From Synergistaceae bacterium (GTDB taxonomy: Bacteria > Synergistota > Synergistia > Synergistales > Aminobacteriaceae), in contig JAFSSM010000006.1 of NCBI GenBank assembly GCA_017451025.1, positions 1 to 34,824 of the forward strand: 34,824 bases of DNA. Direction: 5' to 3'. Of this stretch, positions 9,341-27,447 are shown piece after piece. Position 1 is the first letter of the stretch; the number at the start of each line of letters is the position of its first letter. A program made the position numbers and the translations under genes. The notes beneath the pieces were generated by a model. It had not been told where the DNA came from and did no database searches. It was given only the letters and a program-made list of their open reading frames with translations.

Positions 9341-10126
9341 TTGGCGAAAACTACTCCCGAACAAATCAGGGCATTTCAGCGGGCTACCTTGATGGACGAT
9401 GAATTTATGACGGTATTCTTCAAGGACAATATACCTGCTGTACAGTTCGTATTAAGGATATTGATGGGGAAACCTGACCTGATAGTTAAGACCGTCAAGG
9501 TTCAGGTGAAGCATGAAGCTCACAGAAAATCCAGGATGGTAATATTTGACGTGTATGCAGTTGATTCTGAGGGCAGGCACTACGATATTGAGTTCCAGAA
9601 CAGGAGTTCAGGTGCGGTGCCCTACAGAGGAAGGCTGAACAGTGCGTTGATGGACGTGAATATGCTGTCTTCCGGCGAAGATTATTCCCTGCTGAAGAAC
9701 AGGGAGAGCGTAGTAATTTTCATCACGAAGTATGACGTGCTGAAGGGCGGGAAGCCTATATACACGATTGAGCGAGTCATAAAGGAGACAGGAGAGGATT
9801 ACGGCGACGGGTCTCACATAATTTACGTGAACACTTCGCATAAGGATTACAGCACTGCGCTAGGGAAACTGATACATGATTTCCGGTGCGTTAATCCCGA
9901 AGAGTGGTATTATCCGGAATTTGCGGGACGTGCGAAGGAGCTTAAAGGAGGTGAAGATTCAATGAAGATATTGGACGACATGAAGGCAACGGAGCGAGTT
10001 GAGGTAAGCGAGAACATCGCAGTCAACTTTATCAAATCTGGCCTTCTTGCGCTGGAAGTTATCGCTAAGAACTGCAACCTGTCCTTACAGCGTGTGCAGG
10101 AACTAGCCGCCACCATTTCCCGCTGA
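9341..10126 (+). CDS. Rpn-type PD-(D/E)XK nuclease / putative transposase
   Basis: The 261-residue protein starts with TTG behind AGAAGGAGGGG. It matches the PD-(D/E)XK transposase-like family (Rpn/PDDEXK_2): an N-terminal DDEFMTVFFKDN, then the nuclease core with Asp70 (VIFDVYAVD), Asp82 and Glu84-Phe-Gln86 (YDIEFQNRS). The usual catalytic Lys is Gln, as is normal in this family. An ITKYDVLKGG..YTIERV segment follows, and a helical C-terminus. E. coli RpnA relatives promote RecA-independent recombination and cut DNA; whether any act as transposases is unproven. There are no inverted terminal repeats or target duplications that I can see, and hairpins bound it on both sides, so it is a solitary gene. 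Confidence 0.85.
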   Translation: MAKTTPEQIRAFQRATLMDDEFMTVFFKDNIPAVQFVLRILMGKPDLIVKTVKVQVKHEAHRKSRMVIFDVYAVDSEGRHYDIEFQNRSSGAVPYRGRLNSALMDVNMLSSGEDYSLLKNRESVVIFITKYDVLKGGKPIYTIERVIKETGEDYGDGSHIIYVNTSHKDYSTALGKLIHDFRCVNPEEWYYPEFAGRAKELKGGEDSMKILDDMKATERVEVSENIAVNFIKSGLLALEVIAKNCNLSLQRVQELAATISR

Positions 10127-10213: not shown

Positions 10214-12646
10214 ATGCCCCGCAAAAACTTACTCTCTGAAGCCGAAGCCAAAAAGCTCCGCCAAATTGACGCATACACCCACGAATCCCACTTCCGCACC
10301 AACAATCCCCCCTCCGGTCTCGCCCGCTACGACACACTCCCTCAGCCCCCGCACACATACTCATTCGACCCCCACACCTCCCCAACTCTCGACTGGGCCG
10401 GAAAATCCGAAGGGCTCTCCTTCTCCGTCCCGACCCTCTCCCTCCACGTCCACGAGGCCGTCAAGCCCCACAAAATCCTCCGCTCCGTCCAGAACCAGAA
10501 CGAAACCAGGCAGCTCACCCTCTTTGAGTCCAGGCTCGACCGCATCAACAGACGAAACCAGGCCCTCGAGTTCTACCAGCATTCCGGAATGTGGTCGAAC
10601 AGAATGATTGCGGGAGATTCACTCATAATAATGAACTCCCTGCTGATGAAGGAGAACATGGCCGGACAGGTTCAGACGGTTTACATTGACCCTCCATACG
10701 GGATAAAGTACGGGAGTAATTTTCAGCCGTTTGTGGGTAAGAAGGACGTGAAGGACAGGAATGATGATGACCTGAGCACTGAGCCGGAGATGATAAGGGC
10801 ATTTCGGGACACGTGGGAGCTTGGGGTGCATTCATACCTGACGTATTTGCGGAACCGGTTGTTGCTGGTGAGGGAGCTGCTGAGTGAGTCGGGGAGTGTG
10901 TTTGTGCAGATAAGTGATGAGAATGTGCATTTGGTGAGGAATCTGTGTGATGAGGTATTTGGTGCGGAAAATTTTGTTAGCATGATAAGCCTTGAGAAAA
11001 CTTCCGGAGCTTCATCTTCATTGCTTGCAACAATTAATGACTATATCGTGTGGTATGCTAAGGACAAGGAGCGGGTGAAATATCATCAGCTCTACAAGCT
11101 AAAGGAGTTAGGCAAGGAAGGAACAACACAATATACGCGGAGAGACGGAGACAAAATTTTTGCATTAGACAATTGCACCAGCGCAGGAGCGGCCAGTCAG
11201 GAACAACCTTTTATTTACGAGGGCAGAACGTATTATCCATCAAAGAATCGGCATTGGCGAGTCGCAGTAGAAGGCATGAAGGAGTTAGCAAGGCACGGAC
11301 GGCTTCAAGTTGTAGGCAACACATTAATGTATAAACAATATCTAGATGATTTCCCGGTTGCCCCAATAAATAACGTGTGGGACGACGCAAAGATGACCGG
11401 CTTCACCGAACCAAAGCGTTACGTGGTGCAGACAGCTTCACTCGCCATCGCCCGCTGTATCCTCATGACCTCAGACCCCGGCGACCTCATCCTCGACATC
11501 ACCTGCGGCTCCGGCACCACCGCCTTCACCGCCGAACAATGGGGCAGACGCTGGATAACCTGCGACACCTCCCGCGTCGCACTCGCAATCGCCAGACAAC
11601 GCCTCCTCACCGCAACTTTCCCCTACTACTCCCTCGCTGACCCCGAAACCGGAATCTCCGCAGGCTTCCGCTACAAAACCGTTCCCCACATCACCCTAAA
11701 GTCCATCGCCAACAACGAACCGCCCTCTCAAGAAATCCTCTATGACCAGCCCGAAACTGACACCAAACGCATCCGCGTTACAGGCCCCTTCACCGTCGAA
11801 GCTCTACCCGCTCCCGTAGTCTTCTCTCCAGAAGAAGCAATCGAGACCGAATACCTCAACGAGGGCGCAAAACTCTCCGACTGGCGCGAACAGCTCCTCG
11901 CTACAGGCATTCTTGGACGCGGCGGCGAACGTATACGCTTTGCACGGATTGAACCTCTGACCGGAAGGCACTGGCTCAACGCTGAGGGCGAGACTGTGGA
12001 CGGCAGACGTACAGCTGTGTGTTTCGCCGGAGAATCTTCGCTGATGGATTCTGCACGGGTTGAGGGTGCCCTCGATGAGGCTGAGGACATGCGCCCCGCA
12101 CCGGAAGTGATAGTTTTTGCGGCGTTCCAGTTTGACCCGGAGGCGGCGAGAATGATTGCGGCGGTGAACTGGCAGGGAATTGCGGTGCTTCAGGTTCAGA
12201 TGAACCCCGACATGATGACCGAAGACCTGCGCCGGAAAGTCAGGACGGATCAATCGTTCTGGCTTGTGGGCCAGCCCGACGCTGAACTTGAGGAAGTTGG
12301 AGAGGGGCTTTACCGCGTGAAGGTTTTGGGTTTCGACTACTACAACCCCAGCACGAATAAAGTAGAGTCCGGCAACGCAGACAAGATTGCTATGTGGCTT
12401 CTGGATACTGATTACGACAGAATGACCCTCGAACCGTCGCAGGTGTTTTTCCCGATGGAGGGAGTGCCTGGAGACTGGACAAAACTTGCTAAAACTCTCA
12501 GGGCAGAGATTGACGCGGAGGCACTGCAGAAATTTGCAGGCCATGAATCTTTGCCGTTCGAGTGCCGGAAGGGCCAGCGTGTGGCGGTGAAGATTATTGA
12601 CAACAGGGGCATCGAGAGCATGAGGATATTGACGCTTGATGAGTAA
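10214..12646 (+). CDS. Type III-like DNA adenine methyltransferase (Mod), without a restriction partner
   Basis: This 810-residue protein is a beta-class amino-methyltransferase. The catalytic motif IV (YIDPPYG, residues 157-163) precedes the AdoMet motif I (LDITCGSGTT, 427-436). Such proteins methylate adenine at N6 in a specific sequence. Residues about 255-395, between the two motifs, form the target recognition region. Its DNA (about 10976-11400) is clearly more AT-rich than the flanks, as expected for an exchanged recognition module. A C-terminal region of ~350 residues (QFDPEAARMIAAVNWQG) is typical of long Mod proteins coupled to DEAD-box Res subunits. Here no res gene follows: flgL converges immediately downstream. 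It is either an orphan epigenetic methylase or a remnant. The ATG is preceded by GGAAGGA. Codon third positions swing between C-rich and G-rich blocks within the gene. Confidence 0.9.
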   Translation: MPRKNLLSEAEAKKLRQIDAYTHESHFRTNNPPSGLARYDTLPQPPHTYSFDPHTSPTLDWAGKSEGLSFSVPTLSLHVHEAVKPHKILRSVQNQNETRQLTLFESRLDRINRRNQALEFYQHSGMWSNRMIAGDSLIIMNSLLMKENMAGQVQTVYIDPPYGIKYGSNFQPFVGKKDVKDRNDDDLSTEPEMIRAFRDTWELGVHSYLTYLRNRLLLVRELLSESGSVFVQISDENVHLVRNLCDEVFGAENFVSMISLEKTSGASSSLLATINDYIVWYAKDKERVKYHQLYKLKELGKEGTTQYTRRDGDKIFALDNCTSAGAASQEQPFIYEGRTYYPSKNRHWRVAVEGMKELARHGRLQVVGNTLMYKQYLDDFPVAPINNVWDDAKMTGFTEPKRYVVQTASLAIARCILMTSDPGDLILDITCGSGTTAFTAEQWGRRWITCDTSRVALAIARQRLLTATFPYYSLADPETGISAGFRYKTVPHITLKSIANNEPPSQEILYDQPETDTKRIRVTGPFTVEALPAPVVFSPEEAIETEYLNEGAKLSDWREQLLATGILGRGGERIRFARIEPLTGRHWLNAEGETVDGRRTAVCFAGESSLMDSARVEGALDEAEDMRPAPEVIVFAAFQFDPEAARMIAAVNWQGIAVLQVQMNPDMMTEDLRRKVRTDQSFWLVGQPDAELEEVGEGLYRVKVLGFDYYNPSTNKVESGNADKIAMWLLDTDYDRMTLEPSQVFFPMEGVPGDWTKLAKTLRAEIDAEALQKFAGHESLPFECRKGQRVAVKIIDNRGIESMRILTLDE

Positions 12647-25517: not shown

Positions 25518-25592
25518 AGCTATATTTTCCTCCTTAATTGTCAGTAAATTTTGCAGGTAAGATTAGCAGAAAGTTCGAAAAATTCAAAGCCG

Positions 25593-26510
25593 TCATAGGG
25601 CTATTTCGTGCTGGAACGGTGCATTGAGTCTTTCATTTGCCGTCCTGATATTTTTTTCATCAATGTCTATCCCGATGTAATGCCTCCCCAAATTTCTGGC
25701 AGCTATGCATGTTGTACCTGAACCTGCAAAAGGATCAAGCACTGTCTGACCCTCAATAGTTACCAGTGAGACCAGAAGCTCCATCAGCTTCAATGGCTTT
25801 TGCGCGGCATGAAGTCCCTTATCTCTGCCGGAAGACTGAACACGTATTATGTTAGAGCAATTGTCGTCACGCGCATTATAGTTTTCGAGGGCATGTTCAT
25901 TCCACGCGCCAAGTCCGCAATCTATAACGTTATCCGCAATCGTTCCTCCAGTCCTATAAGGCTTCTGAAACCACAGAATCGGTTCAAACACAGGGGCAGG
26001 ATTTCCCAGTCTCCAGCCTTCCCACTTGGCTGCGTTGTACGAATCACCTCTGCGCTCGTATACGGCAGAGAGTCTCTGTGCGCGGTGAGGGGCAATATCT
26101 TTTTCCCATGCCAGCATTTCCCTGAACGTGAAGCCGGAGTCTTCCAGTGCGGCAATACACCTGTGAGCATAACGTCTTCCCGCAAACACGAAGCAGGATG
26201 CTCCAGGCTTGAGCACCCTCAGCCAATCAGGAGACCATGATGCGCACCATTCCTGATATTCGCGGGATATGTTCTTGTCCGCATAGCTCCAGCCGTTCAG
26301 AGGTTTTCCCCTGCGCTTGAAGAGACCGCCGCCTAAAGACTGAGCTGGCGAGCTGCCTCCGTAAGCAGAATTTGTATTGTTGTGGAGAACATCCCAGTCA
26401 TCAAGGCCTATTCCGTATGGTATATCGGAGATTATTGCGTGCAGGAAGCTGTCGGGAAAAGTCTTGAGAATTTCTATTGAGTCGCCTTGAAGCATAGTAT
26501 CGATCTTCAT
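25593..26510 (-). CDS. HindIII-type DNA adenine methyltransferase
   Basis: This beta-class methyltransferase (305 residues) has motif IV as SDIPYGIG (residues 28-35) in place of the usual DPPY. It also has LFKRRGKPLNGW, RVLKPGASCFVFAGR, WEKDIAPHRAQR, GLHAAQKPLKLMELL and motif I LDPFAGSGTT (259-267). I recall M.HindIII sharing these blocks, including DIPY, and the adjacent endonuclease is clearly HindIII-like, so the target is probably AAGCTT, methylated at N6 of adenine. All catalytic motifs are present, so it should be active even if the nuclease is damaged. The ATG follows GGAG by nine bases. It would overlap the restored end of the endonuclease gene by ATGA. Confidence 0.9.
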   Translation of the reverse strand: MKIDTMLQGDSIEILKTFPDSFLHAIISDIPYGIGLDDWDVLHNNTNSAYGGSSPAQSLGGGLFKRRGKPLNGWSYADKNISREYQEWCASWSPDWLRVLKPGASCFVFAGRRYAHRCIAALEDSGFTFREMLAWEKDIAPHRAQRLSAVYERRGDSYNAAKWEGWRLGNPAPVFEPILWFQKPYRTGGTIADNVIDCGLGAWNEHALENYNARDDNCSNIIRVQSSGRDKGLHAAQKPLKLMELLVSLVTIEGQTVLDPFAGSGTTCIAARNLGRHYIGIDIDEKNIRTANERLNAPFQHEIAL

Positions 26511-26562
26511 CTCGATATGCTCCTAACGTAAGCATCTATTTGCGCCAGCTTCTCGTTAATCT

Positions 26563-27372
26563 TCAGGGTGGCGATAAGCTCATTAACGGCCTGTTCGCGA
26601 GAATAGCTCCTGATTGCTGCAATTTTGTCCAGCCAGAAGATTTTTCCTGCATACTTCGCTGAATTATTGCTGACACCTGCACACCAAGCGATTCCTCGAA
26701 AACTTCCGGCTTAACATTAAAGAAGCTCTCGATGAAGCAGTTGAACTCCGAAAGGAAATTATTCTTCATGCTTGAGACCGTAACGCTGTGAGAGAAATTC
26801 TCGCAGAAGCTCCAGACGTACGCCAAATTCAGGTTAGGAGATTCTTCTATGCTGTTGTCGATCATGAATGCCAAGTGTTCCCAGCTCAGGAGGCAGACAT
26901 TGTGAGTAAGTGCCTGAGCATAAATCTGACTGCTCCTGCCCGGATACTGGAAGTATGGCGCACACAGAACTGCATAATCATTGTCTTTCCGCCAGCCTGA
27001 CAGTGCCGACACCTTAAAATCCTTCTGGTTCTTAGCTGTTCTGCTTAGTCTGAAAGCCTTAGCGTCAGCTACAAGACTGTACCCAAAATATTTTGACGCA
27101 GCGAGCACATCTGCGGAATCACCACGTTCTTTAAGGGCTGCAGATTTTAGCCCAAGTTCACGAAATGCTCGAGCAAGAACCATATCTGAAGCCTTCGAAA
27201 ATAGTTTTTCTTCGGTGGAGTCATGAGGCAGATATTCTGGGATTATACTTGTTTGTCTCAGAGTCGCGGCAAAATCATAGCCGGAATTTACGCAGGCTTC
27301 CAGCTCACGGCATACCTCGTCAAAATTTTTCCCTGCACAATCGCCAATTATCGACAATATTTCATGGAACAT
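26563..27372 (-). CDS. HindIII-like type II restriction endonuclease, C-terminus lost by frameshift
   Basis: The start is the ATG at 27372 with GGAGG seven bases upstream (a GTG three bases earlier is too close). As read, 269 residues. Residues 51 to ~165 match R.HindIII strongly as I remember it: STEEKLFSKASDMVLARAF, the active site LVADAKAFRLSRTAKNQKDF with Asp103 and Lys105, and DYAVLCAPYFQYP. From residue 245 the sequence stops resembling HindIII. The +1 frame continues the match (IFWLDKIAAIRSYSREQAV, then KLAQIDAYVRSI) and ends at 26507 with an ATGA overlap of the methyltransferase start. One missing A in the AAAAA run (plus-strand T5, 26641-26645) explains it. The whole gene would then be 26507-27372, about 288 residues; HindIII has 300. 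Whether this is a true mutation or a sequencing error is open. Confidence 0.88.
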   Translation of the reverse strand: MFHEILSIIGDCAGKNFDEVCRELEACVNSGYDFAATLRQTSIIPEYLPHDSTEEKLFSKASDMVLARAFRELGLKSAALKERGDSADVLAASKYFGYSLVADAKAFRLSRTAKNQKDFKVSALSGWRKDNDYAVLCAPYFQYPGRSSQIYAQALTHNVCLLSWEHLAFMIDNSIEESPNLNLAYVWSFCENFSHSVTVSSMKNNFLSEFNCFIESFFNVKPEVFEESLGVQVSAIIQRSMQEKSSGWTKLQQSGAILANRPLMSLSPP

Positions 27373-27447
27373 CACAACACCTCCGTAATTTTTGGGTCAG
27401 GCATTAAGAGTAGCACAAAGCCTCGCAAATTTTTCATGCTTTCACGG

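Follow-up and report, generated by a model that had tools for sequence, protein, structure and literature searches.

When an endonuclease gene is divided between two reading frames beside an uninterrupted methyltransferase gene, has the enzyme been lost, is it switched off, or has the DNA been misread? This question is raised by a HindIII-type locus in the window, the whole 34,824-nucleotide stretch of DNA analyzed here, which comes from a member of the Synergistaceae of gut or rumen. Our preferred answer, to which we assign a probability of about 0.86, is that a recent, natural one-base deletion inactivated the endonuclease (R) of a HindIII-type cassette and left an intact methyltransferase (M) behind.

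The HindIII-type cassette

The frameshifted R open reading frame (26563..27375, minus strand) starts with GTG at 27375 or ATG at 27372 and encodes 270 amino acids, about 245 native residues followed by about 25 out-of-frame residues. The PF09518 (RE_HindIII) profile matches residues 8-249 (E=2.9e-57; 194.6 bits, above the curated cut-off of 25.3), and R.HindIII (PDB 2e52) matches query positions 5-250 (E=3.5e-63). The product departs from the family frame after about residue 245 and, as a HindIII-family protein, is incomplete: the frameshift near residue 246 costs it the C-terminal helices. The preliminary description, made from the sequence alone, had called it HindIII-like to residue ~244 and unrelated beyond, and the two matches, ending at 249 and 250, bear this out. 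It had also assigned the HindIII C-terminus to the other frame, and aligning both frames confirmed this assignment. The native C-terminus lies out of frame at 26507..26638 (minus strand); searched alone against the PDB, the frame 26507-26644 matches residues 251-292 of R.HindIII (E=0.0028), with HindIII chains as the only matches, and it is 57-80% identical to the C-termini of congeneric R proteins. This out-of-frame segment is as similar to the congeners as the rest of R, no stop codons were found in it, and the stop codon that originally ended R shares an ATGA with the start of M, just as had been noted.

M (25593..26510, minus strand) is, as previously claimed, intact. Its 305 amino acids form an uninterrupted N6_N4_Mtase domain (PF01555, E=1.7e-46) containing the motifs DIPYG and DPFAGSG, and it is collinear with M at the HindIII-family loci of congeners (70-79% identity) and, as in M.HindIII-type pairs, accompanied by a HindIII-family R. 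An AGGAG at 26520..26524 (minus strand), the likely ribosome-binding site of M as judged from sequence, would likely serve M independently of R translation. Because M is intact and has its own likely ribosome-binding site, it has probably kept its activity, and AAGCTT sites are probably still methylated without being cleaved.

The closest known relatives are R.HindIII and M.HindIII of Haemophilus influenzae (PF09518; PDB 2e52, 3a4k), which share with the window the R-then-M order with overlap, the fold of R (TM 0.91 to 2e52_A) and a similar M (~60% identical to the methyltransferase of the HindIII-type locus in H. influenzae HI-5290). In contrast to that system, the frameshift deprives R of the window of ~45 C-terminal residues, which make up the final two helices, and the cassette sits next to gpmA in the genome of a member of the Synergistaceae. 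Judged by blastn junctions and gene order, it occupies 25592..27415 (no strand assigned), with gpmA on one side and a divergent gene on the other. In G022, the nearest congener identified (gpmA 98% identical), the site is empty, and relative to it the insertion comprises ~1.82 kb with R and M only. A 7-bp direct repeat, CAAAGCC, borders the insertion at its right (25585..25591) and left (27416..27422) ends, resembles a target duplication and is present as a single copy in G022. R-M genes also stand beside gpmA in two further genomes (G008 and G026) and elsewhere in other congeners. Viral and plasmid relatives of R are distant, at 47-56% over part of the protein and mostly ~36%.

Position and predicted effect of the missing base

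To locate the lesion, eight congeneric R genes and two further loci were compared with the window at the nucleotide level. All eight congeneric genes read GAA AAA (AAG in one), then exactly six bases, then TGG, and the window has GAA AAA, five bases and TGG. The run of A residues is five long in the window (26641-26645) and four to five in the eight congeners. Given a run of normal length and five rather than six bases after it, the comparison places the lesion outside the A5 run: the missing base is that of the codons following the run, between GAA AAA and TGG (26636..26640, minus strand). The frame switch had earlier been put in the A5 run itself, a claim we withdraw, since A4-A5 also occurs in congeners and the gap lies in the next five bases. 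The reconstruction EKIFW, which depends solely on placing the change in the A-run, falls with it, and judging from the congeners the ancestral motif was most simply EKSFW. We also considered a frameshift hotspot and discarded it: the R gene of a Treponema (L091) breaks nearby, but its lesion falls within an A7 run that lies a few codons beyond this point.

A lesion outside the A5 run argues against a homopolymer switch and against a homopolymer error alike. Phase-variable R-M genes are known from other bacteria, and the frameshift does adjoin the A5 run, so slippage at A5/T5 could be imagined to toggle R. However, comparison with congeners shows a run of normal length, and it is unremarkable in a window that holds 88 A/T runs of at least five, and no simple-sequence repeat that could set the R frame, as expected of a phase-variable R-M gene, was found at the lesion. 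Moreover, a frameshift in a DpnII-family R gene of the same genome lies outside a homopolymer, and other R genes of this genome were lost through truncation. We therefore regard a phase-variable switch as very improbable. The odds of programmed -1 frameshifting at GGAAAAAUC, which would yield a low level of full protein and couple R and M translation, appear just as slender. In its favor, the two frames overlap, the A5 run would be their junction and the downstream frame is conserved. Against it, intact relatives in the genus have the same A-run within an R gene read in a single frame, and in the zero frame the stretch does not form a slippery heptamer of the type X XXY YYZ.

Under the preferred reading of a one-base deletion, the break near codon 246 would remove the two C-terminal helices of the HindIII fold. 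An AlphaFold model of the frameshifted R keeps this fold (TM 0.90-0.91 to 2e52; Foldseek E ~1e-25), with pLDDT dropping to 56 and 41 over the last 20 residues. The model of an intact congener R contains confident helices at 259-269 and 272-286 (pLDDT ~90-94), both absent from the model of the frameshifted protein. The frameshift also costs the family-conserved residues W248, A263, L267 and I280 (alignment numbering). Since the last two helices are lost and an unrelated tail of ~25 residues stands in their place, the frameshifted R is very probably inactive. Given that the catalytic core and HindIII fold are retained, residual DNA binding or nicking by the truncated protein may be possible.

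Mutation, sequencing error and the age of the break

If the lesion were a sequencing or assembly error, the true R gene would be intact and the system would restrict AAGCTT. Such an error is conceivable, since the event concerns a single base and the assembly consists of 62 contigs, and the C-terminal frame is uninterrupted and well conserved. To weigh it, 585 open reading frames of three congeners were screened against 0.83 Mb of the window's genome. This gave 142 matches and four frameshift candidates, one of which was the R gene; the others were two read-throughs of tRNA regions at the N-terminus and one spurious open reading frame. No frameshift was found in the remaining ~139 orthologue comparisons within the sampled 0.83 Mb (95% upper bound ~2% per gene; the figure counts comparisons, and some matches may be one gene counted twice), which speaks against an error, as do the position of the gap outside a homopolymer and two more R genes of the genome that are cut to about half their length, a loss that base-calling errors leave unexplained.

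An intact, restricting enzyme might also be suggested by the strong avoidance of AAGCTT, which occurs 38 times in the 2.35-Mb genome as compared to ~690-770 expected from sampled sequence. We nevertheless rejected the view that this depletion proves recent R activity: congeners without HindIII-family genes are equally depleted (median of 27 sites per Mb, vs 19 in those with R; p=0.28), and AAGCTT is not depleted in G013, a genome with M only. It follows from the equal depletion of these congeners that AAGCTT avoidance cannot date the loss of R. Taken together, we consider a sequencing or assembly error unlikely, though less so than a switch or programmed frameshifting. Among the three options left by the preliminary description, natural inactivation with a solitary methyltransferase thus stands, while the phase switch is disfavored by the missing repeat tract and the homopolymer error by a gap that lies elsewhere.

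The loss of R by natural deletion was most likely recent, to judge by the state of its sequence: R deviates at two of 66 strongly conserved columns, inside the range of live genes (0-9 in 47 intact relatives).

Endonuclease loss and site avoidance in the genome and genus

Taken alone, the broken R is an ordinary pseudogene. However, a census of the neighbors of PF00145, PF01555 and PF02086 methyltransferases in this genome yielded four R loci, all of them broken; an intact R may lie elsewhere in the genome. Besides the HindIII-type gene, these are a DpnII-family R (L189, G000:C57, 600-1500) whose coding sequence is divided between two frames because a single base is missing outside any homopolymer, an NgoMIV-family R (L186, G000:C7) ending at 135 of 290 residues and an MvaI/BcnI-family R (L192, G000:C18) ending at ~144 of 264 residues; their neighboring methyltransferases are all uninterrupted. 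In the genus as a whole, the four families account for 50 R genes, of which 22 are broken and 28 intact (intact/broken: HindIII 6/3, DpnII 10/9, NgoMIV 3/3, MvaI 9/7), a count that leaves out two matches at contig ends. Where both partners can be seen, 12 loci combine a broken R with an intact M, one shows the reverse and three have both broken (12 versus 1, exact p=0.003). For seven of the DpnII remnants, no M lies within 1.5 kb. Among ~75 HindIII-family loci from outside the genus, ~8 are broken too. A plausible reason for R to decay first is that its loss would be harmless and cheap, whereas loss of M would be lethal as long as R is active.

Solitary methyltransferases beside degraded R genes have been described (Seshasayee et al., via PMC6471742), and decay of R that leaves a solitary methyltransferase is, according to that account, a known kind of event. 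The intact M beside a broken R in the window fits the decay product expected from R-M systems there; unlike the cases as relayed in that source, the losses here comprise 4/4 R loci of one genome and 22/50 across a genus. Helicobacter pylori and Neisseria gonorrhoeae (PMC6789123) have R-M-rich genomes with many R-M genes in varying activity states. Like ours, these genomes hold several R-M systems, of which mutation has inactivated some, but neither of the two single-base lesions described here shows the repeat or homopolymer tracts that underlie phase variation in such species. The more unusual leads are the genus-wide scale and the avoidance of at least ten restriction motifs. The pattern offers a countable natural series of Type II death, from intact genes through the just broken and the remnant to the methyltransferase alone.

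Site avoidance was surveyed in 0.83 Mb of the window's own genome, G000 (L106-L125, L146-L165 and the window). Observed/expected ratios of 0.02-0.13 were obtained for GRCGYC, GAATTC, RGCGCY, AAGCTT, GTSAC, GTTAAC, GATATC, GCATGC, CCNNGG and GRGCYC, several other palindromes in the same sample were near 1, and avoidance of multiple motifs is common to several congeners. Methyltransferase matches in the genome numbered two for C5 and nine for N6/N4, with none for D12 above its cut-off; given so few matches, most avoided motifs are without an evident enzyme among the families surveyed. Rusinov et al. (2015, PMC4687349) interpret shared site avoidance as a trace left by R-M systems that have since been lost. 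In line with that study, congeners here avoid the same sites with or without the system; what differs is that at least ten motifs lie at or below ~0.13 of expectation at once. Site avoidance in the genus is no evidence for a currently active enzyme. We tentatively suggest, as a rather doubtful generalization, a genus-wide disarmament in which gut and rumen Synergistaceae repeatedly gain compact Type II R-M cassettes, lose R and keep M, with the motifs staying near-absent long afterwards or through an unrecognized pressure.

Several further loci were noted along the way. In G013, whose genome has 1234 AAGCTT sites, a HindIII-type methyltransferase (L142, G013:C42:3327-4253) stands alone, and neither an R gene nor a convincing R remnant was found beside it. 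A HindIII-type locus of G011 (L085/L008) carries frameshifts in both R and M. On a 3,368-base Holophagaceae contig (L035), a HindIII-type R exits one end and its C-terminus appears at the other, before M, a layout resembling a small circular molecule. The window itself also encodes, at 10214-12646 (plus strand), an N6/N4 methyltransferase of 810 amino acids with a long C-terminal part; no recognizable endonuclease gene adjoins it, and the gene that precedes it (9341-10126) appears, by eye, to be of the Rpn-family nuclease/transposase-like type.
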